Part shown: piece after piece, positions 2,569 through 25,472 of the stretch
Layout of the letters: every line of letters starts with the position of its first letter
How positions within the stretch are numbered: position 1 is the stretch's first letter
IMG/VR virus record: IMGVR_UViG_3300014962_000021
Coordinates: 1-29,993 of that record
DNA: 29,993 nt
Direction: 5' to 3' (one strand)
Origin: a virus
The notes under the pieces: model-generated
What the model was told of the DNA's origin: nothing
The model's database searches: none
Seen by the model: the letters and a program-made list of their open reading frames with translations, nothing else
Position numbers and translations under genes: made by a program

Positions 2569-4757
2569 TGGTCCGACTGTTAGTTTACCCTGTGGGCGGT
2601 GGGTTGCCCGAAACGCTGGATTTTGAGGCAGCGGATAGCCTTTCCGATGCGCTGGTCTTGGATCTCCGCCCGACGGATGCCGAGAACGTCCTGAAAGGCG
2701 GGGCCACGGAATACAGTTTTGACGTGCCGCAAACGCCGATCAACCGCCGCGTCTTTGACGACTGGCAGAACTGGCAGCGGGACGCCGGCACGGCCACGTT
2801 ATACCGCGATGCGATCTTGGAGGTGGACGGCTTCCCCGCTCGGTTGGGCAAACTGGCTTTGATGAGCGCAACTGATGAGGTGGCCCGCCTAACCATGTTT
2901 TTCGACAGCGAAGATCCGTTTCGGGCGCTGCAAGATTTGCGCGTGAACGAGTTGGATTGGGATATTATTCCGACAACAAGCATCCCTGCCTTGGCCGTTA
3001 ATTTCCCTTTTTTTTCGGGAACGTCAAATGTTTTGGCGATACCCGCCAAATTGCGTAGTTGGCCGCTGAATGGGTTTAACCGCGTCGTGACCAACGCCGA
3101 CTTCTATCCGTGCATTCAGGTCAAGGATATATTGTACCAAGCTCTCCAACGGACGACCCCGACGGCCCCAGCTACGTTGGATTTTATCGCGCAATGGTGC
3201 GGATCGGATGTGTTTGAAAACTTGGTGCTTTTCCTCAACAAAAACCGCGATTATGACGCCGAGTATTTGCGCAGGCTTTACGGCGCTTTGGTCGGGCAAT
3301 TGAATTTTACCTTAACGGTCCCTGCCGGCATCGTAATCAATGGGGCATCTACATTTTTGAATAATGATACCACGGATGGGTTTTATGACAACAACGGCAA
3401 TTATGATACGACGCTGGCGCTTTATACTGCGCCTTATGCGGGTATTTATCGCTTTGATATAACATTCAAGACGGGCACTGCGTTTCCCGCTGGCCTTAAT
3501 CAAATGGGTATGCGCTTCATGCTCAACGCGGTTTTGTTGAGCGCGCAAACAGGCCCAGCCATGTACAACGGAACGGATTACACTTTCACTTTTACGGCTG
3601 CAAATGTTACAATGGCAGCGGGTGACACAATGGGATTTGATTGGGTGAGTGGTTCGATAGGCGGCACTTGGACTTTTGAAAGTGCAAAGCTGAAAATTCA
3701 AATGCAGTCCGACAGTTATGCAGCAGGTAATACGCCGATGCTAACGGGAGGATGGATTCCACGCGACTGGTCCGTGGCGGACGTGTTCCGCGACGTGTTC
3801 CGCATGTTCAATTTGCGGATGTTTTGGGACAATATCCGTCAGAATTTAGCCATCGCCCCCGCACGCCGTTGGTATAACCAATTGGACGGACAGAGCTATT
3901 CGGGCTTTATGACACAGCCCGAAACGGATTGGACGGACTTGGTGGTGGAACCGCCCTCCGAGGTAATCGCCGAGCGTTGGGCGTGGGACTATTGGCTTTT
4001 GCACCGCGAACCTGCCGATGGATGGTTAAAAGTACAAAGTGATTTGTCAGAAGTCCGTTCGGCTGGCGGCCGCATAAATACGGGCCGTGAAGGCGCGCAG
4101 AGAAACGAAAACGAGCTTGAATTAGGCGCCGCAATGGCACATATTTTCGACGGAACCATAAGCGACCCTGCATATACGACCGTCATGCTACCAATGCTCA
4201 TGCGTGAAAACCATGAAGCAAATCCGATCGGACAAACTTCATTTAACGAAGACGACACCTGCTTTTATCTCATGGTTGGCCGTCCGCAATTAGCGACCGA
4301 AAACGGCATGATTAGGACCTATGACATACCAAGTGCCATAGAAGCCTATTTTGCATGCTGGAGAGGCAGTCAAATACCGTACGACTTCAATAGTAATACA
4401 AACCTTTTTGACCGTCCGTCGCTGGCCTTTGGTGACGAGACGAGCATAAATGGTAATCCGATTCCCGGGCTGATTTCTAACTACCATTACGGCACCATCC
4501 AGTCGGCTAACAACGGAAAGTTAATGAAGGCGTATATCCGCCTCTCGTCCGTTGCCCTGCAGACATACACGTTTGACCGCCCCGTGCGCATAGGTCCGCG
4601 TATTTTCGAGGTGCTCCGCATTAACGGCAAACCAGTTGAGAGCGACATTTACGAAGTGACGCTGCAAACGATCGATTACCCAGACGCGGCTTCGCTGCTT
4701 TGGCTGCAAAACCCCAACACCGCCACTTATCTAACGTACGATGCCGATCCCGAGTGA
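2568..4757 (+). CDS. Large tail/baseplate protein with inserted C1q/TNF-like domain
   Basis: The 729-residue protein directly follows the distal-tail candidate. Residues 1-243 and about 381-729 look like one tail-hub type protein; the segment WSVADVFRDVFRMFNLRM opens the second part. Between them, residues about 244-380 have the pattern of a C1q/TNF-like jelly roll: an Asn/Asp-rich start, then APYAGIYRFDITFKTG, and alternating beta strands to KLKIQ. The DNA for this insert, and again at about 4020-4450, is visibly richer in A+T than its flanks, which suggests domain exchange. Such domains often bind host glycans, so a receptor-binding role is plausible but inferred. The stop lies inside the next gene, a 17-base overlap. 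Confidence 0.65.
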   Translation: MVRLLVYPVGGGLPETLDFEAADSLSDALVLDLRPTDAENVLKGGATEYSFDVPQTPINRRVFDDWQNWQRDAGTATLYRDAILEVDGFPARLGKLALMSATDEVARLTMFFDSEDPFRALQDLRVNELDWDIIPTTSIPALAVNFPFFSGTSNVLAIPAKLRSWPLNGFNRVVTNADFYPCIQVKDILYQALQRTTPTAPATLDFIAQWCGSDVFENLVLFLNKNRDYDAEYLRRLYGALVGQLNFTLTVPAGIVINGASTFLNNDTTDGFYDNNGNYDTTLALYTAPYAGIYRFDITFKTGTAFPAGLNQMGMRFMLNAVLLSAQTGPAMYNGTDYTFTFTAANVTMAAGDTMGFDWVSGSIGGTWTFESAKLKIQMQSDSYAAGNTPMLTGGWIPRDWSVADVFRDVFRMFNLRMFWDNIRQNLAIAPARRWYNQLDGQSYSGFMTQPETDWTDLVVEPPSEVIAERWAWDYWLLHREPADGWLKVQSDLSEVRSAGGRINTGREGAQRNENELELGAAMAHIFDGTISDPAYTTVMLPMLMRENHEANPIGQTSFNEDDTCFYLMVGRPQLATENGMIRTYDIPSAIEAYFACWRGSQIPYDFNSNTNLFDRPSLAFGDETSINGNPIPGLISNYHYGTIQSANNGKLMKAYIRLSSVALQTYTFDRPVRIGPRIFEVLRINGKPVESDIYEVTLQTIDYPDAASLLWLQNPNTATYLTYDADPE

Positions 4758-12102: not shown

Positions 12103-12332
12103 AGAAGATGCTTGCCGACTTCATTCGTTTGGGCGGCAAAATGGCCCCCGAACACATCTTTGCGGAACGGCTGGCGATCTGCCAAACGTGCCCGAAAAAG
12201 GGCGTGGTGAAGGTTGTCGGCGTAGAATTTGACGGCTGTACTGAGTGCGGCTGCCCTTTTGTAACCAAACTTCGCTCCGAGTGGCACGCCCTCGACGGCG
12301 GCAAAGTTGAATGCCCCGACGGAAAATGGTGA
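12096..12332 (+). CDS. Small Cys-rich, probable zinc-binding protein
   Basis: The 78-residue protein has six Cys: C29xxC32, then C48xxC51xC53 and C73 in VECPDGKW. The layout C-x2-C ... C-x2-C-G-C-P ... K ... C-P-x-G-x-W recurs in small phage proteins and fits a zinc ribbon. It overlaps the neck candidate upstream (ATGGTAA) and the GT25-type gene downstream (ATGGTGA), so it is translated together with the transferase. A role as partner or cofactor carrier for that transferase is only inferred from the coupling. Confidence 0.65.
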   Translation: MVKKMLADFIRLGGKMAPEHIFAERLAICQTCPKKGVVKVVGVEFDGCTECGCPFVTKLRSEWHALDGGKVECPDGKW

Positions 12333-12973
12333 CGTCTTACGTAATCAACCGCGTCAAGGATGTGGAGCGGCGCCAGTGGGCCGAGGCGCAGATGGACGCG
12401 CTCTGCCTCGAATACCGATTTTTCCCCGCGATTTGCCCCGATGGTGTCAAGTGGGGAGCCCTGAACAGCCGCGTGCGGGGCATGCGCAGGCAAACCGCCT
12501 TCGGCTGCTATCTCTCCCACATGCATGTGCTGAAAGACGCATTGCTCAACGGCACGGGCGCTTTGATCTTTGAGGACGATTTCCTTCCCATGCCTGGATT
12601 TCGTTTTGATTTTGACACGCTGCCCGCTGGTTACGACGCTTACTTCTTCGGATGGATAACGTGGGGCGACGTGCCCACCACGACGCCCATAAATGACCAG
12701 TGGCACGAGCGCAGCGGCTTCGCGGGAACACAGTGCTACTACGTGCCGAAAAACCGCGTGGCGGCCATTGTGCGCGCTCTGGACGCCGATAGCATGACCC
12801 TGCAATACGATCACGCGCTCACTATTTTGATGCGCGAGAAGAAACTCCGCTTTGCATTCAAATCAGGCCCGCGCGTCCTGCAACAAACAGACTTCCCCAG
12901 CACGATCGGAAATGCTCCACATCGTGACGACATAGACTTCAAAAACCAATTCTTCACCCCCAAACAGTTTTAG
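12326..12973 (+). CDS. GT25-type glycosyltransferase
   Basis: The start at 12326 is preferred to an ATG five codons upstream because it gives the ATGGTGA overlap with the previous stop. That arrangement mirrors the previous gene pair. The 215-residue product matches the LPS-type GT25 family: SYVINRVKDVERRQW at the start, AFGCYLSHMHVLKDAL (58-73) and ALIFEDDFLP (79-88) with the acidic EDD. Residues 130-175 (SGFAGTQCYYVPKNRV) form the usual second half. The enzyme should transfer a hexose from a UDP donor in the cytoplasm. It is the fourth transferase of this phage and, unlike the other three, lies in the late operon. Confidence 0.8.
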   Translation: MVTSYVINRVKDVERRQWAEAQMDALCLEYRFFPAICPDGVKWGALNSRVRGMRRQTAFGCYLSHMHVLKDALLNGTGALIFEDDFLPMPGFRFDFDTLPAGYDAYFFGWITWGDVPTTTPINDQWHERSGFAGTQCYYVPKNRVAAIVRALDADSMTLQYDHALTILMREKKLRFAFKSGPRVLQQTDFPSTIGNAPHRDDIDFKNQFFTPKQF

Positions 12974-12974
12974 T

Positions 12975-13376
12975 ATGTACAAGACGATCGTGGATCTTTC
13001 CACAACCCCCGTTGATGCCTCTTTGCCTTTGAACCGCGACGGCTTCAACAACGCGCAGACCAATTACAGCTGCGTTCTCGACATCGACAGCCTCAGCGGC
13101 ACGGCCGAAATCACTTCGATCACGATCGACGGTGACGCCATCGCCATCCCTGCCGGCACGGACATTCAAGATGAGGGCGCCGTTCAACAGGTCATCGTGA
13201 CCGCTGGCAACAGCCTCAATTACATCCAGTCCGACGTGCGCGTGAAATTCACCGCTGCCGCTGGTTCGGATCCGTCCAACTTCCTGTTGACGATCTTCGG
13301 CGAGGCCAACGTGACCAGCGTCACGATCGGCGGCACTCCTCGTGCGTTGACCGTGACCACTCTGCCCGCGCAGTAA
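12975..13376 (+). CDS. Putative virion surface/decoration protein
   Basis: The 133-residue protein is almost all beta-type sequence rich in Thr, Ser, Ile and Val, with no Cys apart from one. It has the same C-ending codon bias as the capsid gene, which suggests high expression. The ATG follows the GT25 stop by one base. Repeated short strands (AEITSITIDGDAIAIPAG, VTSVTIGG) suggest a small Ig-like or jelly-roll domain. A head decoration or fibre-tip protein is likely. As a Ser/Thr-rich product next to a glycosyltransferase it could also be that enzyme's acceptor. Both are inferences. Confidence 0.55.
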   Translation: MYKTIVDLSTTPVDASLPLNRDGFNNAQTNYSCVLDIDSLSGTAEITSITIDGDAIAIPAGTDIQDEGAVQQVIVTAGNSLNYIQSDVRVKFTAAAGSDPSNFLLTIFGEANVTSVTIGGTPRALTVTTLPAQ

Positions 13377-13407
13377 TCGCTAATTAGGTGTGTGTATCTC
13401 GAAGAGA

Positions 13408-13429
13408 GGGGCGGCTTTCGGGTCGCCCC
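13408..13429 (+). other. GC-rich hairpin without U-tract
   Basis: GGGGCGGC (13408-13415) pairs with GTCGCCCC (13422-13429) with one G.U pair and a 6-base loop. No T-run follows. It lies between the virion protein and the lysis-type genes and could be an mRNA-stabilising or processing structure. Confidence 0.5.
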
Positions 13430-13451
13430 AACACGCCGAAAAAACCGAACG

Positions 13452-13676
13452 ATGAAAGACCTTTTGCAATCGCTGATCTGTTTGGCCATTTACATCGTTA
13501 TCAACACCCCCGCGACCGTTGATGGAACAAATAATCATTCTGCTGATCGATATTTTGGACCGGCACGCGAATTGGGCGCTGAGCCTTTACGCGATCCTTT
13601 CGATCGTCCGAATGGCACTTCGCAGCCGCCGCCGATTCAGGCTGTCGTGGGTTCCGAACGGTGGTTTCTCGATTGA
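13452..13676 (+). CDS. Small single-TM protein (lysis-associated candidate)
   Basis: This 74-residue reading frame starts with MKDLLQSLICLAIYIVINTP, one membrane segment, followed by a polar Pro-rich tail. An A-rich leader (CGAAAAAACCGAACG) precedes the ATG, as for other genes here. From 13522 it shares DNA with another frame that has better codon use, so its second half may be non-functional or truly overlapping. Its position ahead of the endolysin fits a holin or spanin-type role, but there is no lipobox and no family match. Confidence 0.4.
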   Translation: MKDLLQSLICLAIYIVINTPATVDGTNNHSADRYFGPARELGAEPLRDPFDRPNGTSQPPPIQAVVGSERWFLD

Positions 13677-13842
13677 ATTTTTTGACGCTCCAAACCCAAA
13701 CGAAAATGGAACAGATACAACAATTCCCGCACGTGGATCCCAAAGCGAAAGCATGGATAGGCCAGCTGGTGGTCTGCTTGGATCCGAGCACGGGCGAGCC
13801 GATACAAGGGACGGTGACGGAAATCGTGGAAGGCACGGTTAA
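13522..13842 (+). CDS. Small membrane protein, holin candidate
   Basis: The ATG at 13522 opens a 106-residue frame: MEQIIILLIDILDRH, then the hydrophobic WALSLYAILSIVRMAL, then an Arg-rich stretch SRRRFR. This is the usual charge layout of a small holin-like protein. The first 60 codons look like normal coding sequence. The last 45 overlap the next gene in another frame and look composition-driven, with a Gly/Asp/Arg-rich tail. It lies two genes upstream of the endolysin. The holin call is from size, position and topology. Confidence 0.5.
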   Translation: MEQIIILLIDILDRHANWALSLYAILSIVRMALRSRRRFRLSWVPNGGFSIEFFDAPNPNENGTDTTIPARGSQSESMDRPAGGLLGSEHGRADTRDGDGNRGRHG

Positions 13843-14005
13843 CGTCATCAAGACGATCAAAGTTATGCGGTCCGACGGCCGTATCGATCTGGTCGAAGTG
13901 GCCGAGCTGGTGGTCCGTGCGGCTTCTCTTTTGGGTCCGCTGCAAAAGCTCGGCAGGTGGATAGCCAACCTGTTCCGCCGCAAAGACAAACGGAGGCCGC
14001 TATGA
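13706..14005 (+). CDS. Small protein of unknown function in lysis block
   Basis: The ATG at 13706 has a good A-rich leader (CCCAAACGAAA) and gives 99 residues. The first half is beta-like (WIGQLVVCLDPSTGEP, GTVTEIVEGTVNVIKTI). The second half is an amphipathic helix (VEVAELVVRAASLLGPLQKLGRWIANLF) ending in a strongly basic tail RRKDKRRPL. The amphipathic helix plus basic tail could bind membranes, so a pinholin-like or lysis-regulating role is possible. The stop overlaps the endolysin ATG (ATGA), so the two are coupled. Confidence 0.6.
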   Translation: MEQIQQFPHVDPKAKAWIGQLVVCLDPSTGEPIQGTVTEIVEGTVNVIKTIKVMRSDGRIDLVEVAELVVRAASLLGPLQKLGRWIANLFRRKDKRRPL

Positions 14006-14421
14006 AGCCGTCGCGCTATTTCAAGTCGTCCGAGTTCGACGATCGGACCGCCCCGGGCAGCGGCGAAAACATGCAATGTTCGACCGTGGGCATGCTCGAT
14101 GAGGCCCGACATCGGTTGGGCCGCCCTATTAAAATAACCAGTGCTTTCCGCACGCCGGAGCGGAACAAGGCCGTGGGCGGAGTGCAAAACAGTGCTCACC
14201 TTGGCGGATGGGCGGTGGACATCCACGCGCCGACCTTGCAAGAAAAACGCGACATTTTGCGTGTGCTATATCAGGTCGGTTTTCGGCGGTTCGGTATTAT
14301 GGCAACGGCGATCCACGCCGACAACGATCCTGAAAAGCCGCAGGCCGTTTGGAGCTATCCGAACACGCAGGCCGACCATTGGGCAGCGTTCGGCGGATTA
14401 GACCGCATCGCCGCTCTCTAA
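14002..14421 (+). CDS. M15-family peptidase, endolysin
   Basis: The 139-residue protein matches the M15A (D-Ala-D-Ala carboxypeptidase-like) fold. It has ITSAFRTPERNKAVGGVQNSAH (45-66), zinc ligands His66 and Asp73 in SAHLGGWAVDIH, and a second ligand block at His105 and Asp107 in AIHADND. No signal peptide or cell-wall-binding domain is present, so it would need a holin to reach the periplasm. The start at 14002 overlaps the upstream stop (ATGA). The predicted activity is cleavage of peptidoglycan stem peptides. It is the last gene of the late operon, and a bidirectional terminator follows. Confidence 0.85.
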   Translation: MKPSRYFKSSEFDDRTAPGSGENMQCSTVGMLDEARHRLGRPIKITSAFRTPERNKAVGGVQNSAHLGGWAVDIHAPTLQEKRDILRVLYQVGFRRFGIMATAIHADNDPEKPQAVWSYPNTQADHWAAFGGLDRIAAL

Positions 14422-14458
14422 GATCATGTGAGTTATTTAGGGTTGAAAACTGTAGTAA

Positions 14459-14486
14459 AAAAGGGCTGCCGAACGGTAGCCCTTTT
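14459..14486. terminator. Bidirectional terminator between endolysin and thyX
   Basis: AAAAGGGCTGCC (14459-14470) pairs with GGTAGCCCTTTT (14475-14486) around GAAC, with a G.U pair near the loop. The A-run on one side and T-run on the other let it work for both converging operons. Confidence 0.85.
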
Positions 14487-14491
14487 GCGTT

Positions 14492-15112
14492 TCAAAATCC
14501 GAATGCTCGCAGCGTATGCTCGAATGGACTGTCGGGTATGCGCTTAACCAGTATAAGCATCCAGTTTGCAAGGTCACGCACCTCCTTTTGGGCGTTTGGA
14601 GCTGATCGAAGGCGCTGAAAATGCACAAAAGATCGAAAATTAAACATAATATCGAGCGTCAACTGACTGTTCATGGTCTTGAAAAATCGTGCGCTTTCCT
14701 TCGCCCGCGCACGGCCGAGCAGCGGGGTGAGTTCGGCCAGCGCTTGGTGGTAAAGCGCATCGGCCCGACCATTATGCAAAACCAGTTTTTCAATCAATTC
14801 GTCCGGCCAGTCCATCGGAAGGTAATTTTGATCTTCTTTCAGCTCTTTGTACCGTGCGCTTTCCGCGTTCACGCTTACCCCAATGCGATGTTTAAGCAGG
14901 TGGATGTGCGTTGCCTGATCAACCGTCACCAAAAAGTGCAGACTTGACTTCTCAAACGGCGTTTCGTGGCCCTTTTCGGCCAGCATTTTGAGCAGTTCGG
15001 GGATCCGTTCCCGCTTTTCGGGCGTCAAGTCGCGCGATGTGGACGTCCATGCGCTTTGGGCATGGGTAATATCGCCACCATAGTGTCCGATAAGTTCGAT
15101 TTTGTTTGTCAT
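14492..15112 (-). CDS. thyX: Flavin-dependent thymidylate synthase ThyX
   Basis: The 206-residue protein has the ThyX signature region HLLKHRIGVSVNAESARYK (71-89) and the dUMP/FAD-site environment TPFEKSSLHFLV (51-62). Later SQLTLDIMFNFRSFVHFQRLR closes the fold. Compared with the textbook RHR-x7-S motif, the first Arg is Lys74 and there is one extra residue before the Ser. I believe this variant occurs in phage-borne ThyX. The enzyme makes dTMP from dUMP using methylene-tetrahydrofolate, FAD and NADPH, and so supplies phage DNA synthesis. The start at 15112 overlaps the upstream stop (ATGA). It is the last gene of the minus-strand operon. Confidence 0.9.
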   Translation of the reverse strand: MTNKIELIGHYGGDITHAQSAWTSTSRDLTPEKRERIPELLKMLAEKGHETPFEKSSLHFLVTVDQATHIHLLKHRIGVSVNAESARYKELKEDQNYLPMDWPDELIEKLVLHNGRADALYHQALAELTPLLGRARAKESARFFKTMNSQLTLDIMFNFRSFVHFQRLRSAPNAQKEVRDLANWMLILVKRIPDSPFEHTLRAFGF

Positions 15113-17669: not shown

Positions 17670-17702
17670 TTTGGAAGTGTGCGAACAGTTAAATTATCTT
17701 TG
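17670..17702 (+). promoter_or_regulatory. Early promoter P1 (-33 TTTG, -7 TATCTTTG)
   Basis: TTTG (17670-17673) and TATCTTTG (17695-17702) are 21 bases apart. The spacer contains GAAGTGTGCGAACAGTTA, which recurs exactly in P2 and partly in P3. A-tracts lie directly upstream. It drives the helicase/IbrAB block starting at 17750. Confidence 0.85.
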
Positions 17703-17749
17703 TGTCACCTTAGTTACCAAACGATTTTTCAACCTCAATTTTACCTATT

Positions 17750-18160
17750 ATGAATCGCTCGCAAATTTTCCGCAATGCTTGGACCTCCGCTCGCGCCCTC
17801 GCCACCGTCAAAGGCGGCAATGTTCGCCAGTACATTTCCGAAGCCCTCCGCAAGGCTTGGCAGGGCATCGTGGTAACGATCGAATCGCTTACCGCCGCCC
17901 CCGCTGCCGAGCAGATCCAAAAGCTGGCCGACGCCTTGGTGTTTGCGTACAACCAGTACTACATGACGCCCAAAAAACAAGAAGCAATCGCATTGGTGCG
18001 GCAGGCATCCGAAAATTTGCAAGGCTTTGCGAAAACGGTTGCCGAGTCGGTGTACATGTACAAAAAGTGTTCGGCCAAACAAGCCTACTGCATCGCTCGC
18101 GGCATACACGAAAATTGCGGCAACACTGGCCGTTACGCTGACTTTATCTACCAAGCATAA
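17750..18160 (+). CDS. Hypothetical early protein
   Basis: The ATG at 17750 lies 47 bases after the P1 -7 element, with the leader TTTTACCTATT. The 136-residue product is helical and opens with NRSQIFRNAWTSARALATVKGGNVRQYISEALRKAW. This 'repeat-of-helix then ISEALRKAW' opening recurs in small proteins of many phages and plasmids, where the function is unsettled. Cys residues (CSAKQAYCIARGIHENCG) near the C-terminus could bind metal. It is the first gene of its block, so it is made earliest. Confidence 0.65.
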   Translation: MNRSQIFRNAWTSARALATVKGGNVRQYISEALRKAWQGIVVTIESLTAAPAAEQIQKLADALVFAYNQYYMTPKKQEAIALVRQASENLQGFAKTVAESVYMYKKCSAKQAYCIARGIHENCGNTGRYADFIYQA

Positions 18161-18171
18161 TCCACATTCTC

Positions 18172-18489
18172 ATGAAAGACAAAACAAAATGCCTTCTCGT
18201 CAAGGCCCGCGAAATCATCCGCATTTCCGAAAAGTGTTTCAAGCTCAAGGGCTGGAACGGCGTCGAAACACTGGTCCCCGCCAGTGCCTGTCACGAAGAC
18301 ACCGACACGAGCATTTGGGTAGCGTGCTGGTTCATTCAAAAGCAGGAAGGAATGCAGTATCAACAAACCCCGGTGGGCTGGTACACGGAAAAAACGGGGC
18401 GTGTTGAGCGGGAAACGACCTATCAGCGCCACGTCCCCAAGCAACTTTCACCCGAAAAAACCGATCCCGATGCAGACCTTCTTCGATAA
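18172..18489 (+). CDS. Hypothetical protein
   Basis: The 105-residue protein starts 11 bases after the previous stop. It contains KCFKLKGWNGVETLVPASAC and a Trp/Gln-rich middle. No motif is seen. Its end overlaps the helicase start by 20 bases. It is probably an accessory product of the helicase block, but nothing in the sequence shows the role. Confidence 0.55.
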   Translation: MKDKTKCLLVKAREIIRISEKCFKLKGWNGVETLVPASACHEDTDTSIWVACWFIQKQEGMQYQQTPVGWYTEKTGRVERETTYQRHVPKQLSPEKTDPDADLLR

Positions 18490-19663
18490 CCAACTGTCAG
18501 CAATTGAAAAGCTCCAACGCTATCGCGTTGGGGCCCTTTTTATGGAGCCTGGCACGGGAAAGACCCGCACGGCTATTGAGCTGGTCAAGTCCACCGATGC
18601 CGACTTGGCGTTATGGTTGACGCCATGCCGCACGGCCAACAATTTAGCGGCCGAAATCCAAAAATGGGGAGGACTTGCAAACCTGCATATTTTGGGCATC
18701 GAAACGGTATCTATGTCTACCCGTCGCTATCTTGACGCCCGGGCATTGCTTAGCGGCGCCGAACGTGCTTTTGTTTTGGTTGACGAAAGCCTCAAAATCA
18801 AAAATTGGCAGGCCCTGCGCACGCGCCGTATTTTGTCGCTCGGCCAGTTGGCATCCTATCGGCTTATACTTAACGGCACCCCTTTGTCGCGGAACATCCT
18901 TGACCTGTGGGCGCAGATGGAGTTCTTGTCGCCCAAAATCCTATCGATGTCGCTGCCTCAGTTCAAAAACACCTACTGCGAATGGGTGCGCAAAACCAAG
19001 TATGTCGGCGGTCGATCGATCCAACAGGAGTGGATAACCAAACACCACAACGTTGACCACCTGTACAGCAAGATAGGTCACTATGTATATGAATGCGATT
19101 TGGATTTGTCCAGTCGCCGTCAATACATCGAACTGGAATATACGGTTGACCACGAAGCTCGCGACCGCTACAAAGAACTCAAAGACTACTGGCTGTCAAA
19201 AGACACAATGGATGCTGCGGGCAATAACGTCTTTTTGTCCATGGTGCAGACAATGCAGCAGTCTTACTGTGTTACCGAAGAAAAGTTCACTCGGTTGGCA
19301 GAAGTGCTGAAAGTGAACGATCCGACAAAAGTGTTGGTGTTCACGAAGTACGTCGCCAGCCGTGACGCTATTGCCGAGCGCTATCCGAACCTCACTGTGT
19401 TGAGCTATGGTATGCACGCCTTTGGACTAAACCTGCAAGACCACAACGTAACGGTCTTTTGGGACAAAACGTGGGACTTTGCCCAACGCGAACAGGCCGA
19501 GCGCCGGACCTGGCGAGCAGGTCAACAAATGGACTGCGTTTATTACGATTTTACCGCTCGGATGCCCCTCGACGGCTTGATCAATAGGAACGTGGAAGCA
19601 AAAACCAGCCTGCTGGAGTACGTCAAACGCATCTCCAAGGCACAACTGCAAAAAGAATTATGA
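18470..19663 (+). CDS. SNF2-like superfamily 2 helicase/ATPase
   Basis: The start at 18470 (MQTFFDNQLSAIEKLQ) is preferred over one further upstream because it gives the Q-motif region at the N-terminus and a short overlap. The 397-residue protein has Walker A EPGTGKT (26-32), Walker B LVDES (103-107), motif III LNGTP (134-138), and motifs V/VI in HAFGLNLQ...QREQAERRTWRAGQ. The second RecA lobe is compact: little lies between LVFTKYVASR and GLNLQ. SNF2 enzymes move along DNA without strand unwinding and often remodel DNA-bound proteins. It is coupled to the next gene (ATGA). In a phage it could serve replication, recombination or the adjoining IbrAB-like pair. Confidence 0.85.
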   Translation: MQTFFDNQLSAIEKLQRYRVGALFMEPGTGKTRTAIELVKSTDADLALWLTPCRTANNLAAEIQKWGGLANLHILGIETVSMSTRRYLDARALLSGAERAFVLVDESLKIKNWQALRTRRILSLGQLASYRLILNGTPLSRNILDLWAQMEFLSPKILSMSLPQFKNTYCEWVRKTKYVGGRSIQQEWITKHHNVDHLYSKIGHYVYECDLDLSSRRQYIELEYTVDHEARDRYKELKDYWLSKDTMDAAGNNVFLSMVQTMQQSYCVTEEKFTRLAEVLKVNDPTKVLVFTKYVASRDAIAERYPNLTVLSYGMHAFGLNLQDHNVTVFWDKTWDFAQREQAERRTWRAGQQMDCVYYDFTARMPLDGLINRNVEAKTSLLEYVKRISKAQLQKEL

Positions 19664-20403
19664 TCCAGTTCCTACAAAACACGGCCAATGCCGCAATACC
19701 TGAGGAGTTTTTGGCCGGTCAAACCTTGATTATTTACCGCGATGGGTACGCGCTGCCATCGGTCCCAGGTGCTACGTTCGTTGACTTTGAGCGATACAAA
19801 GTCAGCTACATCGATTATCAGCCAACCCATATCATTATGGTGGGCACCAACCGCATTTTTGTGCCGTCCATACGCACGGAAATGGTATTCGAGTACCTGC
19901 AAACGATGACTTCCCACATTCGCAAGATGAGCATCGACACGGCCCCTTTCGTCGGCGAACCGTGGCGGTTGTGGTTCCATTATTCGCTCGCGTTCGGCGA
20001 ATGGCTGGGAGTTAACTACTCCTATGCCGTGGAAACCGACTGGCAGCATTGGTTTCTTCGCAACAAGGCCGAGAGCATAATCGACCCGAACGGCGTGCTG
20101 GCCAACAAAAGGCACACGGTTTCCGACCTCGTTCCGCTCAACACCTCGTTCGAATTTAAGGAGCCCGACACGCAACTGGCCGACCTCTACAATCGGGTCA
20201 AAGACTTTGCTTTCGAAAAGCATGACACGCCAAAGTTGATTGTGGCCACGATGCTCCGCGAGCTGAACAAGGCCATTGGCATTCAAATAGGCTTTGACAC
20301 CTACCTATCCAGCGCTCACATTGCCCTGCCCGATTTTGGGATTTACCGCTTTGTCGCCGAGGAATGCCAGCGGCGGCAGGCCATTTACAACGCCGCCCTA
20401 TGA
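19660..20403 (+). CDS. Unknown 247-residue protein between helicase and IbrA-like gene
   Basis: The protein is soluble, mixed alpha/beta and rich in aromatic residues (EPWRLWFHYSLAFGEWLG, TDWQHWFLRNKAES). It is locked between the helicase and the PAPS-reductase-like gene by ATGA overlaps on both sides. Strict coupling suggests a functional partner of these genes. I do not recognise any motif or family. It is the least understood member of the cassette. Confidence 0.7.
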   Translation: MIQFLQNTANAAIPEEFLAGQTLIIYRDGYALPSVPGATFVDFERYKVSYIDYQPTHIIMVGTNRIFVPSIRTEMVFEYLQTMTSHIRKMSIDTAPFVGEPWRLWFHYSLAFGEWLGVNYSYAVETDWQHWFLRNKAESIIDPNGVLANKRHTVSDLVPLNTSFEFKEPDTQLADLYNRVKDFAFEKHDTPKLIVATMLRELNKAIGIQIGFDTYLSSAHIALPDFGIYRFVAEECQRRQAIYNAAL

Positions 20404-21476
20404 AGCGCACATACCTTGAAAAATCCGTGCTTGACGCCGCCCGCGAGCGAATGGCTTACATCTTTGACAACTTCGAGGAAATCAACGTCAGCATCTCCGG
20501 AGGCAAAGACAGCACCGTAATGCTTGCACTGGCCGTGCAGGAGGCCGAGCGCCGCAACCGAAAAATCAACGTGTTTTTCCTTGACCAAGAAGCCGAATAC
20601 CAAGCAACGGTCGACTTGGTGCGTGAGCAGATGCGCCACCCGCTGATCGTGCCCAAATGGTACCAAGTTCCCATCTATATGACCAACGCTACGAGTTACT
20701 CGGACTACTTTTTGCACGCGTGGGGCGAGGGCCAAGACTGGATGAGACCTAAGGCTAGCGTGGCCATTAAGAAAATCGAAGGGGAATACCCGGATCGTTT
20801 CTACGATTTTTTCCCATATATCGAAAAGCAGAACCCGAACGCGGCTTACTTGGTCGGCCTGCGGGCCGAGGAGAGCATTACTCGATACCGGGCCGTCACC
20901 AAACACGCCGGCTACGGTGGCCTGCGCTGGTCCACGGTCGGACCTTCGGGTGCTGCTCGCTTCTATCCGATCTACGACTGGACTTGGAATAGCGTTTGGC
21001 GGTTTATTTATGACTACAACCTGCCGTACAACAAGCTCTATGACCTCATGTTTTGGTCGGGCTATTCCGTGTACAAAATGCGGGTCTCAAACTTGATCCA
21101 CGAGAAAGCATACAAGTGCCTGATCGACCTGCCGAAATTTGAGCCCGAGACGTACGACCGCTTGTGCCAGCGCATATCCGGCATTGCCACTGCCAGCCGA
21201 TACGCCAGCGAAAAGCTGATATTCAGCAACAAAACGCTGCCCAAGCACTACGCCAGCTGGCGGGAGTTTCGCGACTTCCTGCTCGAAAATATCCCGTCAC
21301 CCGATCATCGCGAGGCTTTCGCCCGACGCTTCGCCAAACAGGACACCGACGAACGCACGTGCAAAGCGCAAGTTGGGCAGCTGCTGGTCAACGACTGGGA
21401 AAATTCTAAATCATTCGACACCAAAAAATCCGAAAAAACCCTTCAAATCAAAGCCAAATGGATGCAAATTTTGTGA
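20400..21476 (+). CDS. ibrA: PAPS-reductase-like ATP pyrophosphatase (IbrA-like)
   Basis: The start at 20400 overlaps the previous stop (ATGA) and gives 358 residues. Residues 28-39 (INVSISGGKDST) hold the PP-loop SGGKDS that binds ATP in PAPS reductases and tRNA thiolases. FFLDQEAEYQATVDLV matches the usual second strand. The C-terminal half contains YPIYDWTWNSVWRFIYDYNLPYNKLYDLMFWSGYSVYKMRV, as in the IbrA/DUF3440 branch, not in true assimilatory PAPS reductases. The ParB-like gene follows with a 19-base overlap, the standard IbrA-IbrB order. Biochemical function of the pair is unsettled. Confidence 0.8.
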   Translation: MKRTYLEKSVLDAARERMAYIFDNFEEINVSISGGKDSTVMLALAVQEAERRNRKINVFFLDQEAEYQATVDLVREQMRHPLIVPKWYQVPIYMTNATSYSDYFLHAWGEGQDWMRPKASVAIKKIEGEYPDRFYDFFPYIEKQNPNAAYLVGLRAEESITRYRAVTKHAGYGGLRWSTVGPSGAARFYPIYDWTWNSVWRFIYDYNLPYNKLYDLMFWSGYSVYKMRVSNLIHEKAYKCLIDLPKFEPETYDRLCQRISGIATASRYASEKLIFSNKTLPKHYASWREFRDFLLENIPSPDHREAFARRFAKQDTDERTCKAQVGQLLVNDWENSKSFDTKKSEKTLQIKAKWMQIL

Positions 21477-21955
21477 ATTTCCGCACCCCTAAGGTGGTGC
21501 CCATCGAACAATTGTTCGCCAACGATTACAACCCCAACCGTATGCCCCGCGAGGAGATGCGCCTGCTTGAAGACTGCATCCGAAAGTACGGGTTTTTGTT
21601 CCCCATTATCGTCACGTGGGATGCCGATCGGGAAAAGTACAGGATCATCGACGGCTACCACCGCTACGAAACGCTGAAACGCATCGGCAGTTCGGAGGCA
21701 TCCGTTATTGACCTCCAGCTGCCATACCACGACGCAATCCAGTTGACCGTACTGATGAATAGGATCAAGGGCCTGCACCAGGTCGAAAAAATGTCTGACT
21801 TGGTGGTAAAATTGGAAGGTTTGGGCCTTACCGATAGCGAAATCGCCAATAATTTGGGGATGGAAGCGGAGGAATTGATCCGCCTAAAACAGCAACTCGG
21901 CATCGCAAATGCCTTTAAAAACGTCGATTACGCCAACGCCTGGGAATTCGGATAA
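21458..21955 (+). CDS. ibrB: ParB-like protein (IbrB-like)
   Basis: The 165-residue protein has a ParB N-terminal (Srx-like) domain: VPIEQLFANDYNPN, then a strand/loop, then IIDGYHRYETLKRI with the G-x-H-R nucleotide-binding element. A short helix-turn-helix (GLTDSEIANNLGMEAEELIRLK) follows near the C-terminus. The size and the fused location behind the IbrA-like gene fit IbrB. ParB-type domains bind or hydrolyse CTP or cut DNA in different families; which applies here cannot be told. It is the last gene of the P1 block. Confidence 0.8.
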   Translation: MDANFVNFRTPKVVPIEQLFANDYNPNRMPREEMRLLEDCIRKYGFLFPIIVTWDADREKYRIIDGYHRYETLKRIGSSEASVIDLQLPYHDAIQLTVLMNRIKGLHQVEKMSDLVVKLEGLGLTDSEIANNLGMEAEELIRLKQQLGIANAFKNVDYANAWEFG

Positions 21956-21972: not shown

Positions 21973-22005
21973 TTTGGAAGTGTGCGAACAGTTATTTTAT
22001 CTTTG
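21973..22005 (+). promoter_or_regulatory. Early promoter P2 (-33 TTTG, -7 TATCTTTG)
   Basis: TTTG (21973-21976) and TATCTTTG (21998-22005) are 21 bases apart, and the spacer shares GAAGTGTGCGAACAGTTA exactly with P1. It starts the block of small genes at 22047. Confidence 0.85.
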
Positions 22006-22046
22006 CGTCACTTTAATGCCTAATTGTTCATCTCAACCCTTTTACC

Positions 22047-23545: not shown

Positions 23546-23578
23546 TTTGTAACTGTGCGAACGATTATATTACATTTG
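23546..23578 (+). promoter_or_regulatory. Early promoter P3 (-33 TTTG, -7 TACATTTG)
   Basis: TTTG (23546-23549) and TACATTTG (23571-23578) are 21 bases apart. The spacer keeps TGTGCGAAC at the same place as P1 and P2, but the flanks differ. It starts the recombination block at 23629. Confidence 0.8.
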
Positions 23579-23628
23579 TGTTCTAATAACGAAGCAACCA
23601 TTTTACCTCACATTTTACCCTTACACTT

Positions 23629-23958
23629 ATGGACATTTCCAAGTACATTGGCCCCGACGGCCAACCCAGCCACATCTGCTTTTCCTTTCACATTCTGGCC
23701 AACAACAAGACCAATTGGGCCGAACGGTTGGAGGAAGCAATCATTCGCAGCGACATCCGCCGAGTAGCCGCCGTGGAAATCATCAAAGGGCGGATGGTGG
23801 TCGGCCGAAACATGATCGTGGCTTACGTGCTTTTCCCAAAGCAAGATCACAGCCTTTCCACCGCCGTGTTCCATTCGATCTCGTTCGCCAACGTTCTCGG
23901 CGTTCACGATTTCGCCGCCAGCGGTGCCCCCTGCGATCTTAATTTTGTCAACCCTTAA
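23629..23958 (+). CDS. Hypothetical protein at head of recombination operon
   Basis: The 109-residue protein opens with MDISKYIGPDGQPSHICFSF and continues as alternating strands and helices (ERLEEAIIRSDIRRVAAVEII). It ends with LNFVNP. There is no signal peptide or known motif. The leader TTTTACCCTTACACTT resembles those of the first genes after P1 and P2. It lies 16 bases before the annealing protein and may work with it. Confidence 0.6.
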   Translation: MDISKYIGPDGQPSHICFSFHILANNKTNWAERLEEAIIRSDIRRVAAVEIIKGRMVVGRNMIVAYVLFPKQDHSLSTAVFHSISFANVLGVHDFAASGAPCDLNFVNP

Positions 23959-23974
23959 TCAATCCATTTTCACC

Positions 23975-24721
23975 ATGAGCAACATTGTAACAGCCGAGGC
24001 AAACCGCCTCACCACGGCCGAAATAGCGGAGCTGGCCGCCGCTGGCATCATTCCTGCCGACTGCCCGCCCGCACAAGTGGCGATCTTCGCCGGCGTTTGC
24101 CGCTCGATCGGCTTGGATCCGCGCCTCAAAGAAATCGAATTGATTCCGCTGGGCGGCGGCAAATACGCCCCGTACGTGCGCAAAGACGGCCTGCGCAAGA
24201 TCGCGTCCCGGACTGGCGACTTTGCTGGGTTCGACCCGATCAAGTTCGACCTTATGCCCGACGGCAGCCACAAGACGGCCGCCTGTTTTGCCCGTGGAAC
24301 CATGCCCATCACGGCCACGGCGACCGTGTATCGCTTGGTCAAAGGCAACCGCTGCCCGTTCACGGTGACGGTCGTCACGGCCGAGTTCAACAAAGGTCGC
24401 GGCCAATGGTCGGCCATGCCCATGCAGATGATTTCCAAGGTGGCTGAGGCCCACGCCCTGCGCATGGCATTCCCCGAAGTGACCAATGGCATAATCGATG
24501 AGGCTGAAATCGAGATCGCCCGCGAAATAGCCACGGGCATTCCTGCCGCACCGGGCAAGCCTGTTTTGCAAGTCGGCACCGAGAAGTTCGCCCAGGTCGT
24601 CAAAGCGCTGGCCAAAAACCAAGCTACTTTGGAGCAAGCCCGCTCCAAGTTCGATATATCTGAAGACGTGCAGCTGGCGATCATTGACGCCGTGAACGCG
24701 TATCAGGAGCACGTTCCGTAA
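23975..24721 (+). CDS. bet: Single-strand annealing protein, Bet/RecT type
   Basis: The ATG at 23975 (MSNIVTAEANRL) is chosen over the upstream extension because of the usual CACC leader and family start. In the 248-residue protein, residues about 40-130 have the Bet-type core: AIFAGVCRSIGLDPRLKEIELIPLGGGKYAPYVRKDGLRKIA. The hallmark RGQWSAMPMQMISKVAEAHALRMAFPE follows at about 150-177. Such proteins coat ssDNA and anneal complementary strands together with an exonuclease. The YqaJ-type exonuclease is the next gene, 52 bases downstream. Confidence 0.9.
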   Translation: MSNIVTAEANRLTTAEIAELAAAGIIPADCPPAQVAIFAGVCRSIGLDPRLKEIELIPLGGGKYAPYVRKDGLRKIASRTGDFAGFDPIKFDLMPDGSHKTAACFARGTMPITATATVYRLVKGNRCPFTVTVVTAEFNKGRGQWSAMPMQMISKVAEAHALRMAFPEVTNGIIDEAEIEIAREIATGIPAAPGKPVLQVGTEKFAQVVKALAKNQATLEQARSKFDISEDVQLAIIDAVNAYQEHVP

Positions 24722-24773: not shown

Positions 24774-25472
24774 ATGATCCCAACTTTCAAAATTCGCTGC
24801 TCCGCTATTGGCCAAATCATGACCGAACCGCGTTCCAAGTCCGAATCGCTCTCGGCCACCGCCAAAACCTACCTCCGTGAGTGGACGCTGGAGCAACTGT
24901 TCGGCCGCTCCAAACAATTCCAAACTGCTGCCATGCGCAAAGGCTCCGAAGTTGAGCAGGCCGCAATCGACTTTGCGCAGTCCCAACTTGACCCCGAGGG
25001 CCTTTGGTTCAAAAACGAAACGCACTTTTTTAACGACCACATTAGCGGCACGCCCGACGTCATCAAGGCCGAAAAGGTCTATGACATCAAGTCGCCATGG
25101 TCGTTCGCGTCCTTCCCGCTGCTCGAAACCGAGTTGCCCGAGAAAGCGTATTGGTGGCAATTGCAGGGCTATATGGCCCTCACCGAGTGCACGTCGGCGG
25201 CTGTGGTGTACTGCCTCATGGACGCGCCCGAGGCGATTATTGCGGATGAAGCCCGAAAACTATCCTACCAAGTGACCGCTGGTTCGGATTGGTGCATCGA
25301 AGCCGTCCGCCGCCAGTTGACTTACCCGGACGTCCCTGAGTATATGCGCCTCAAAGTTTTTGAAGTGCAGCGCGACGATGTGGCGATCGCTTCGATCTAC
25401 GACCGTGTTCAGCGCCTCGACGAGCTCGCACAAGAGTGGTTGGCCCCGTACGCCGACCGCTTCATAGATTAG
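24774..25472 (+). CDS. YqaJ/lambda-type exonuclease
   Basis: The 232-residue protein has the PD-(D/E)XK nuclease core: RKGSEVEQAAIDFA (Glu59/Glu61), SGTPDVI (Asp95) and VYDIKSPW (Asp104, Lys106). AYWWQLQGYMALT, the Gln-rich helix of the YqaJ family, follows. The enzyme should degrade one strand of dsDNA to give ssDNA for the annealing protein. It is the last gene of the block, followed by terminator A. The leader has a poly-C/T composition like its neighbours. Confidence 0.9.
   Translation: MIPTFKIRCSAIGQIMTEPRSKSESLSATAKTYLREWTLEQLFGRSKQFQTAAMRKGSEVEQAAIDFAQSQLDPEGLWFKNETHFFNDHISGTPDVIKAEKVYDIKSPWSFASFPLLETELPEKAYWWQLQGYMALTECTSAAVVYCLMDAPEAIIADEARKLSYQVTAGSDWCIEAVRRQLTYPDVPEYMRLKVFEVQRDDVAIASIYDRVQRLDELAQEWLAPYADRFID

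Follow-up and report, generated by a model that had tools for sequence, protein, structure and literature searches.

An IbrA-IbrB phage cassette with an SNF2 helicase and a pseudo-SNF2 protein as a candidate nucleic-acid modification module

Genes and proteins of the cassette

We analysed a stretch of viral DNA of 29,993 nucleotides (hereafter the window), which comprises bases 1–29993 of the 37,638-base IMG/VR virus record IMGVR_UViG_3300014962_000021, and focused on a cassette of coupled genes that contains the IbrA-IbrB pair. The cassette genes and the protein motifs discussed below all lie on the + strand. They encode, in order, a small all-beta protein of the phrog_5809 family (18172–18489, 105 residues), an apparently active SNF2 helicase/translocase (18470–19663, 397 residues), a degenerate SNF2 paralogue without Walker A or DExx motifs that we call pseudo-SNF2 (19660–20403, 247 residues), IbrA, a PP-loop ATP-pyrophosphatase with PAPS_reduct and DUF3440 domains (20400–21476, 358 residues), and IbrB, a ParB/Srx-fold protein with a DGYHR nucleotide motif (21458–21955, 165 residues). 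An earlier note, made from the sequence alone, had described the last four genes as a coupled cassette. All four reading frames are indeed open at these coordinates, and successive genes overlap as it had reported, by ATGA (4 nt), by ATGA again (4 nt) and then by 19 nt. The frame of the small protein, directly 5' of the helicase gene, likewise runs 20 nt into the helicase start.

The first of the four was correctly recognized as a compact SNF2 ATPase. It matched the Pfam families SNF2-rel_dom (PF00176, 2.5e-11) and Helicase_C (5.9e-5), and its Walker A motif GTGKTR (residues 28–33, 18551–18568) and motif II DES (residues 105–107, 18782–18790) are nearly invariant among 84 relatives. With GTGKT, DES and the motif VI residues R346, R349 and G351 all conserved, the protein has the features expected of an SNF2 helicase. 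It also matched profiles of the defence proteins ZorD, DpdE and DrmD, which raises the possibility that the cassette is a defence or counter-defence system, encoded by phage or prophage, that leaves phage DNA unmodified, for example an SNF2 sensor with a nucleotide-modifying effector. Inactive SNF2-type P-loop domains in DndH and BREX PglZ (PMC12839542) and the occurrence of the cassette in otherwise unrelated phages are consistent with such a role. However, the SNF2 protein is short and stands alone, and the profile matches cover the generic motor part only. The cassette also lies in an early DNA-metabolism region and occurs in phages regarded as lytic too, and the module showed no nuclease or toxin domain. 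We consider a defence role of this kind unlikely, if worth keeping in mind.

IbrA was also assigned as the earlier note had proposed, with Pfam matches to PAPS_reduct (PF01507, 1.9e-18) and DUF3440 (PF11922, 2e-8), and it matched phrog_2302 over its whole length (2.8e-94). Its PP-loop, SISGGKDST, lies at 20490–20516, and SGGKDS is conserved at 99% or above. Across 153 IbrA sequences, the PP-loop residues S33, G35, K36, D37 and S38 were at or near 100%, as were D62, E64, R155, E158, R162, D193, R228 and R258. No cysteine column was conserved in the same 153 sequences, the best columns having cysteine in about one third. Reductases of phosphoadenosine phosphosulfate (PAPS) require a catalytic cysteine. 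Neither this cysteine, as in CysH, nor the cluster cysteine of DndC has a conserved counterpart in IbrA; in DndC, C280 is indispensable for the [4Fe-4S] cluster and for modification (PMC11662687). Because it lacks a conserved cysteine, IbrA probably uses ATP without reducing PAPS or transferring sulfur in the manner of DndC.

The missing cysteine bears on two other explanations of the cassette. One follows the usual phage annotation and takes IbrA for an auxiliary metabolic gene whose product is a PAPS reductase serving sulfate assimilation. The Pfam PAPS_reduct match agrees with that label, and viral PAPS reductases have been read as sulfate-assimilation genes (PMC7785012, PMC10434257). Against it stand the absent catalytic cysteine and the fixed partners of IbrA (SNF2, pseudo-SNF2, ParB-fold and DNA-methylase-like proteins), which are foreign to sulfate assimilation, so that we give a metabolic role very little credence. 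The other is DNA sulfur modification of the phosphorothioate type, in which IbrA would take the role of DndC, IbrB that of DndB and the SNF2 protein a DndH-like one. IbrA does match DndC profiles weakly (TIGR03183, 1.6e-7; PADLOC DndC, 6e-9), and DndB belongs to the ParB-like superfamily (PMC11662687). The indispensable DndC cysteine has no conserved equivalent, though, and the 37.6-kb record contains no Aminotran_5 (cysteine desulfurase class) match, although host IscS could serve. DndD and DndE were not seen either, with no search aimed at DndD and a DndE search that had no working positive control. A sulfur-based chemistry, the analogy drawn in the earlier note, is thus improbable.

IbrB, encoded beside IbrA, matched Pfam ParB_N (PF02195, 1.5e-7), in line with its first description as ParB-like. 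The DGYHR motif (21650–21664) has a form common to SbnI and SerK, and its D65, G66, H68 and R69 were invariant in 136 sequences. Other invariant residues were N22, N25, P26, N27, N101, G105, H107, E139 and R142. The DGxHR stretch aligned with SbnI (E 1.4e-4) and SerK (E 0.013), and the domain aligned with ParB CTPases as well. From these alignments, IbrB likely binds nucleotide.

The 247-residue protein and its relation to SNF2

The protein encoded between the helicase and IbrA had been described as belonging to no recognized family. As far as databases are concerned this was accurate: searches of Pfam, PHROGs, NCBIfam and PADLOC gave it no significant match, a set of 50,697 phage records had no tblastn match to either of two family members, and a PDB sequence search with profiles of the family found nothing convincing. 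An iterated search recovered the family in about 50 fetched loci, nearly always directly 5' of IbrA, and members were also present on a haloarchaeal plasmid and on a bacterial metagenome-assembled genome contig. The protein can nonetheless be identified as a pseudo-SNF2, since the remote-homology search and structure prediction that the earlier note had proposed both point to SNF2.

The first clue to homology was an iterated hidden Markov model (HMM) of the helicase that drifted onto the 247-residue family, and the relationship was re-tested with non-iterated profiles. Some homologues are longer, at 280–366 residues. These long variants aligned with SNF2 helicases over 303 columns (hhalign 96.9%, E 1.4e-10) and with the short variants (hhalign 98.8%, E 1.1e-16). 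In reciprocal HMM searches, the long-form profile recovered SNF2 helicases with E-values down to 1.3e-18 and recovered none among shuffled helicases. The short family aligned directly with SNF2 over 22 columns only, which weighs against the assignment, and the claim of homology is therefore based on the long variants together with the fold comparison.

An AlphaFold2 model of the 247-residue protein, built with 27 sequences, had a mean predicted local distance difference test (pLDDT) score of 95.7 and a predicted template modelling score of 0.90. The best Foldseek hits to this model were SF2/SNF2 helicases, in the PDB 9fq6_Y (a chain of the vaccinia RNA-polymerase complex, E 2e-3), XPB, Snf2h and RadD. 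DEXDc and SNF2-like helicases ranked best in BFVD, reaching E 1.8e-5 with a phage protein that has no name and 2.5e-4 with a named DEXDc protein.

While the fold resembles that of a helicase, the ATPase motifs are lacking. Walker A was present in 80 of 87 SNF2 helicases versus none of 42 family members (30 short and 12 long), and motif VI in 84 of the 87 versus, again, none of the 42. Judged by eye from collinearity, the family reads VGxNR where the helicase has VDES; in the window, this degenerate motif II is VGTNR in place of VDESx, and its position, 19840–19854, was likewise placed by eye. A motif III-like IDTAPF at 19933–19950 is collinear with LNGTPL of the helicase, an alignment that is itself inferred. 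Without Walker A, DExx and the motif VI arginines, a motor of the usual type is ruled out. We conclude from the profiles and the predicted fold that the 247-residue protein is a degenerate, catalytically dead SNF2 paralogue. Its short form in the window would retain the first lobe together with the C-terminus. An orphan family outside Pfam and PHROGs is in this way resolved as pseudo-helicases.

Recurrence and surroundings of the cassette

The linkage of these genes was surveyed by scanning IMG/VR with an IbrA alignment, which gave 80 IbrA loci, and with a helicase alignment, which gave 80 helicase loci. Among the 80 closest IMG/VR relatives of the window SNF2, IbrA adjoined the helicase in 78 and IbrB was also present in 76, counted over the stretch fetched for each locus. 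The two helicase loci without IbrA were contigs ending less than 800 bp past the helicase match. Among roughly 150 distinct IbrA genes, the immediate 5' neighbour was SNF2 in 46 cases, pseudo-SNF2 in 37, IbrB in 18 and a methyltransferase-like gene in 6. Intergenic gaps in related loci were mostly short or negative, as is typical of coupled genes. Chance falls far short of explaining this gene order and coupling, seen again in tens of unrelated contigs. This neighbourhood survey had been named in the earlier note as a possible refutation; it linked both the helicase and the 247-residue gene to IbrA elsewhere, and the cassette holds as a conserved functional unit.

The survey also added a component. 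Clustering of neighbour genes identified a protein of about 105 residues that adjoins the helicase in many loci, and its profile matched the window reading frame 18172–18489 (E 1.7e-24). Of 102 helicase loci, 85 had it, and in most of these it lay no more than 450 bases upstream of the helicase. The gene at 18172–18489 is a conserved fifth module gene that was absent from the earlier four-gene account. The structural model of this phrog_5809 protein is all-beta (pLDDT 86.6). Foldseek returned no match below E 0.001 and only weak OB-like ones, so we describe its fold class as a small beta protein.

The complete set of small protein, SNF2, pseudo-SNF2, IbrA and IbrB was found in four loci including the window, and SNF2 and pseudo-SNF2 occurred together in 12 loci. 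Pseudo-SNF2 often occupies the position that SNF2 holds elsewhere, and the two are most simply read as sharing a scaffold role, although the genomes with pseudo-SNF2 in this position may carry a helicase at another site. In a tree of 105 IbrA sequences, the window IbrA paired with that of contig L003 (support 97) within a 44-member clade (support 98) whose members all had SNF2, pseudo-SNF2 or both. In L003, a small GNAT-like acetyltransferase (4149–4550; Pfam match under the curated cut-off) lies between SNF2 and pseudo-SNF2. Contigs L008, L009 and L018 each carried two IbrA genes from different clades, and L008 and L018 also two IbrB genes. In L002, a 930-residue DnaB-like helicase frame (12246–15038), apparently with an intein-like insertion, adjoins the module. 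The haloarchaeal plasmid mentioned above, from Actinarchaeum halophilum (L194, 1934–6074), carries ParB, pseudo-SNF2 and IbrA in that order, with a second PAPS-reductase-like gene upstream. As judged from this gene content, the module crosses into archaea.

IbrA-type matches occurred in 215 of 50,697 phage records and 586 of 72,556 plasmid records. Helicase matches in phage isolates were distributed by genus as Flavobacterium (90), Streptococcus (18), Lactobacillus (3), Listeria (2) and Fusobacterium (1), mostly the same genera that carry IbrA, with 90 Flavobacterium records in both searches. Direct reading of the neighbouring genes covered the phages FCL-2, 6H, FPSV-D15, Pika (Streptococcus), CR28 (Lactobacillus) and phiFN37. 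In Flavobacterium phage 6H, IbrA is broken into two frames (L091, 4501–5639) and is intact in FPSV-D15. Streptococcus phage 94 has SNF2 reduced to a C-terminal remnant before IbrA (L094, 4233–4499). Gp102 of Mycobacterium phage Gaia, annotated as a helicase beside IbrA, had no match to the SNF2 profile and was not counted. A literature search found no published description of an SNF2-pseudo-SNF2-IbrAB module; the FCL-2 paper reports two open reading frames upstream of IbrAB that are common to the host genome and names no helicase (PMC4541368).

Other neighbours suggest DNA as the substrate. A recurrent one was an amino-DNA-methyltransferase-like protein of about 200 residues, in which a DPPW motif precedes a glycine-rich one. 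These proteins matched PF01555, one of them above the Pfam cut-off. The gene was present in 31–36 loci, often as a pair with DPPW kept in one copy only, and lay directly 5' of IbrA in 6 loci and of pseudo-SNF2 in 7. Tandem DPPW/non-DPPW pairs precede IbrA or pseudo-SNF2 in L055 (4794–5998), L075 (4822–5998), L081 (4730–5989) and L017 (3975–5245). By its motifs, the methyltransferase-like pair is a second putative active/degenerate pair, parallel to SNF2 and pseudo-SNF2. In Fusobacterium phage phiFN37 (L195, 1822–8878), the order is IbrA, IbrB, small protein, helicase, and alongside are ParB, a TGT-family gene and a queuosine-precursor transporter, a set associated with 7-deazaguanine DNA modification. 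TGT and the queuosine transporter were considered as general neighbours and rejected, being confined to phiFN37 with none in 180 surveyed loci.

In the window itself, the cassette is preceded on the + strand by a gene at 17750–18160 (136 residues, weakly PF07410/phrog_29806-like) and, ahead of that, by a Bacteroidota-type promoter at 17670–17708 (-33 TTTG, -7 TATCTTTG). An early promoter had been reported before the cassette; it is present, but ahead of 17750–18160 rather than directly before the helicase. A second copy on the same strand (21973–22011) begins 18 bases past the ibrB stop and gives the unit its downstream boundary. Both have the form TTTG-N21-TATCTTTG and are nearly identical, including the spacer, with 0.17 matches expected by chance per window. 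A weaker third copy lies at 23546–23581, its spacer also conserved. The near-identical repeats, of 36–39 bases, suggest a shared phage regulator, and the two strong copies suggest by their placement that they bracket a six-gene transcription unit, 17750–21955, in which the gene at 17750–18160 comes first, ahead of the conserved module. TTTG-N21-TATCTTTG is a promoter type of Bacteroidota, and because this sequence stands at 17670 and 21973, the host is probably a Bacteroidota bacterium. Downstream of the cassette are a Bet/RecT-like annealing protein (23924–24721) and an exonuclease (24774–25472), and a terminase-like pair was read by eye in the last part of the record.

The early position between two copies of one promoter could also fit a transcription-control or host-takeover device made of IbrAB and SNF2. 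IbrAB have historically been annotated as co-activators of prophage gene expression (PMC4490671), and ParB-fold and SNF2 proteins bind DNA. Yet the nearly invariant catalytic residues of IbrA indicate an enzyme, and methyltransferase-like partners do not fit such a device. DNA modification could itself alter transcription, which makes the two readings compatible. A transcription-control or host-takeover role seems to us rather doubtful.

Proposed function and comparison with known systems

We propose that the cassette is a phage nucleic-acid modification module, acting most likely on DNA and built on IbrA-IbrB, with a chemistry deduced from the enzyme families; we hold this to be evenly poised between right and wrong. 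The SNF2 protein would move along or remodel phage DNA, and pseudo-SNF2, next to IbrA, would be a non-hydrolysing scaffold or DNA-binding subunit, the two together presenting DNA to IbrA. IbrB would bind nucleotide, in the role of a switch, a clamp or a kinase-like subunit. For its part, IbrA would spend ATP in adenylating a group on a base, or on a small molecule destined for attachment, and the adenylated group would then be substituted by a nucleophile other than protein-bound sulfur. With the modification in place, early phage DNA would be shielded from host nucleases. Elsewhere among phages, amino-methyltransferase-like pairs may replace or join the SNF2-type partner.

The methyltransferase-like neighbours, the phiFN37 locus and the parallel with CmoX and CmoY described below favour nucleic-acid modification without proving it. 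The earlier suggestion of a DNA-modification role therefore gains from the methyltransferase-like neighbours in its general part, while its sulfur chemistry is not supported. Several observations weigh against modification by the module. Some IbrAB loci form a group that lacks both helicase and pseudo-helicase, and the second IbrA copies in L008, L009 and L018 indicate that gene content can be shuffled. To our knowledge, the E. coli ybdNM pair has no SNF2, pseudo-SNF2 or small-protein partners. DNA methyltransferases are common in phages, and part of the methyltransferase neighbourhood could be chance. The window's contig contained no DNA methyltransferase of the three families searched, so any modification there would act on an unmodified base.

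A more specific and more tentative proposal, which we regard as possible while leaning against it, is that IbrA-IbrB are the catalytic centre of a class of phage DNA hypermodification not described before. Here a PP-loop enzyme free of cysteine would adenylate DNA or a group yet to be attached, and would be loaded by interchangeable DNA-engaging partners, which may be SNF2, dead SNF2 or an active/dead amino-methyltransferase pair. If true, IbrAB-type systems would share a repeated design principle in which an active enzyme is matched with a dead paralogue, and many of the viral metabolic genes annotated as "PAPS reductase" would encode enzymes that modify DNA. Phages and plasmids widely carry IbrA-like genes, which are commonly labelled as PAPS reductase or sulfur-metabolism genes, and one large IbrA branch is tied to an SNF2 motor and its dead paralogue. 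The lack of a conserved IbrA cysteine speaks against the metabolic label, and DNA modification offers a testable alternative.

The closest known counterparts are the helicase-IbrAB loci of FCL-2, 6H, Pika and CR28, which have been annotated before and not described as a system. Their helicase belongs to the same compact SNF2 family and is encoded directly next to IbrA and IbrB; the Flavobacterium phages FCL-2 and 6H have a phrog_5809-like protein upstream, as in the window. Unlike the window, all four loci are without pseudo-SNF2, and FCL-2 and 6H have the order helicase-IbrB-IbrA. The window IbrA and IbrB are clear members of the IbrA-IbrB/YbdN-YbdM pair, adjacent and coupled, and are embedded with SNF2, pseudo-SNF2 and the small beta protein. 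The E. coli counterpart of the pair forms the ybdNM operon, which is under the control of YbdO/CitR (PMC9068703). The SNF2 gene product belongs to the SF2 SNF2/SWI2 helicases; the 247-residue protein shares their ancestry and fold and differs from them in having no Walker A, DExx or motif VI arginines.

Two DNA-modification systems are similar in outline. CmoY and IbrA are both members of the PP-loop superfamily. Dnd phosphorothioation (DndABCDE/FGH) likewise combines a PP-loop enzyme with a ParB-superfamily protein, and an inactive SNF2-type P-loop domain has been reported in DndH (PMC12839542). The window differs in that its IbrA has no conserved cysteine, its contig has no cysteine desulfurase match, and its active SNF2 stands alone beside a pseudo-SNF2. 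CmoY, a phage DNA ligase homologous to asparagine synthetase, has been proposed to adenylate its substrate and is encoded with CmoX and often with a ParBc protein (PMC12783734). The CmoX-CmoY-ParBc system of Synechococcus phage S-B43 thus likewise has an ATP-dependent enzyme that forms adenosine monophosphate while acting on DNA, near a ParBc protein (PMC12783734), and the sometimes present S-adenosylmethionine-dependent DNA enzyme is a further likeness in outline to IbrAB loci. It differs in that CmoY is an asparagine synthetase homologue, CmoX is a C5-cytosine enzyme and SNF2 is absent.

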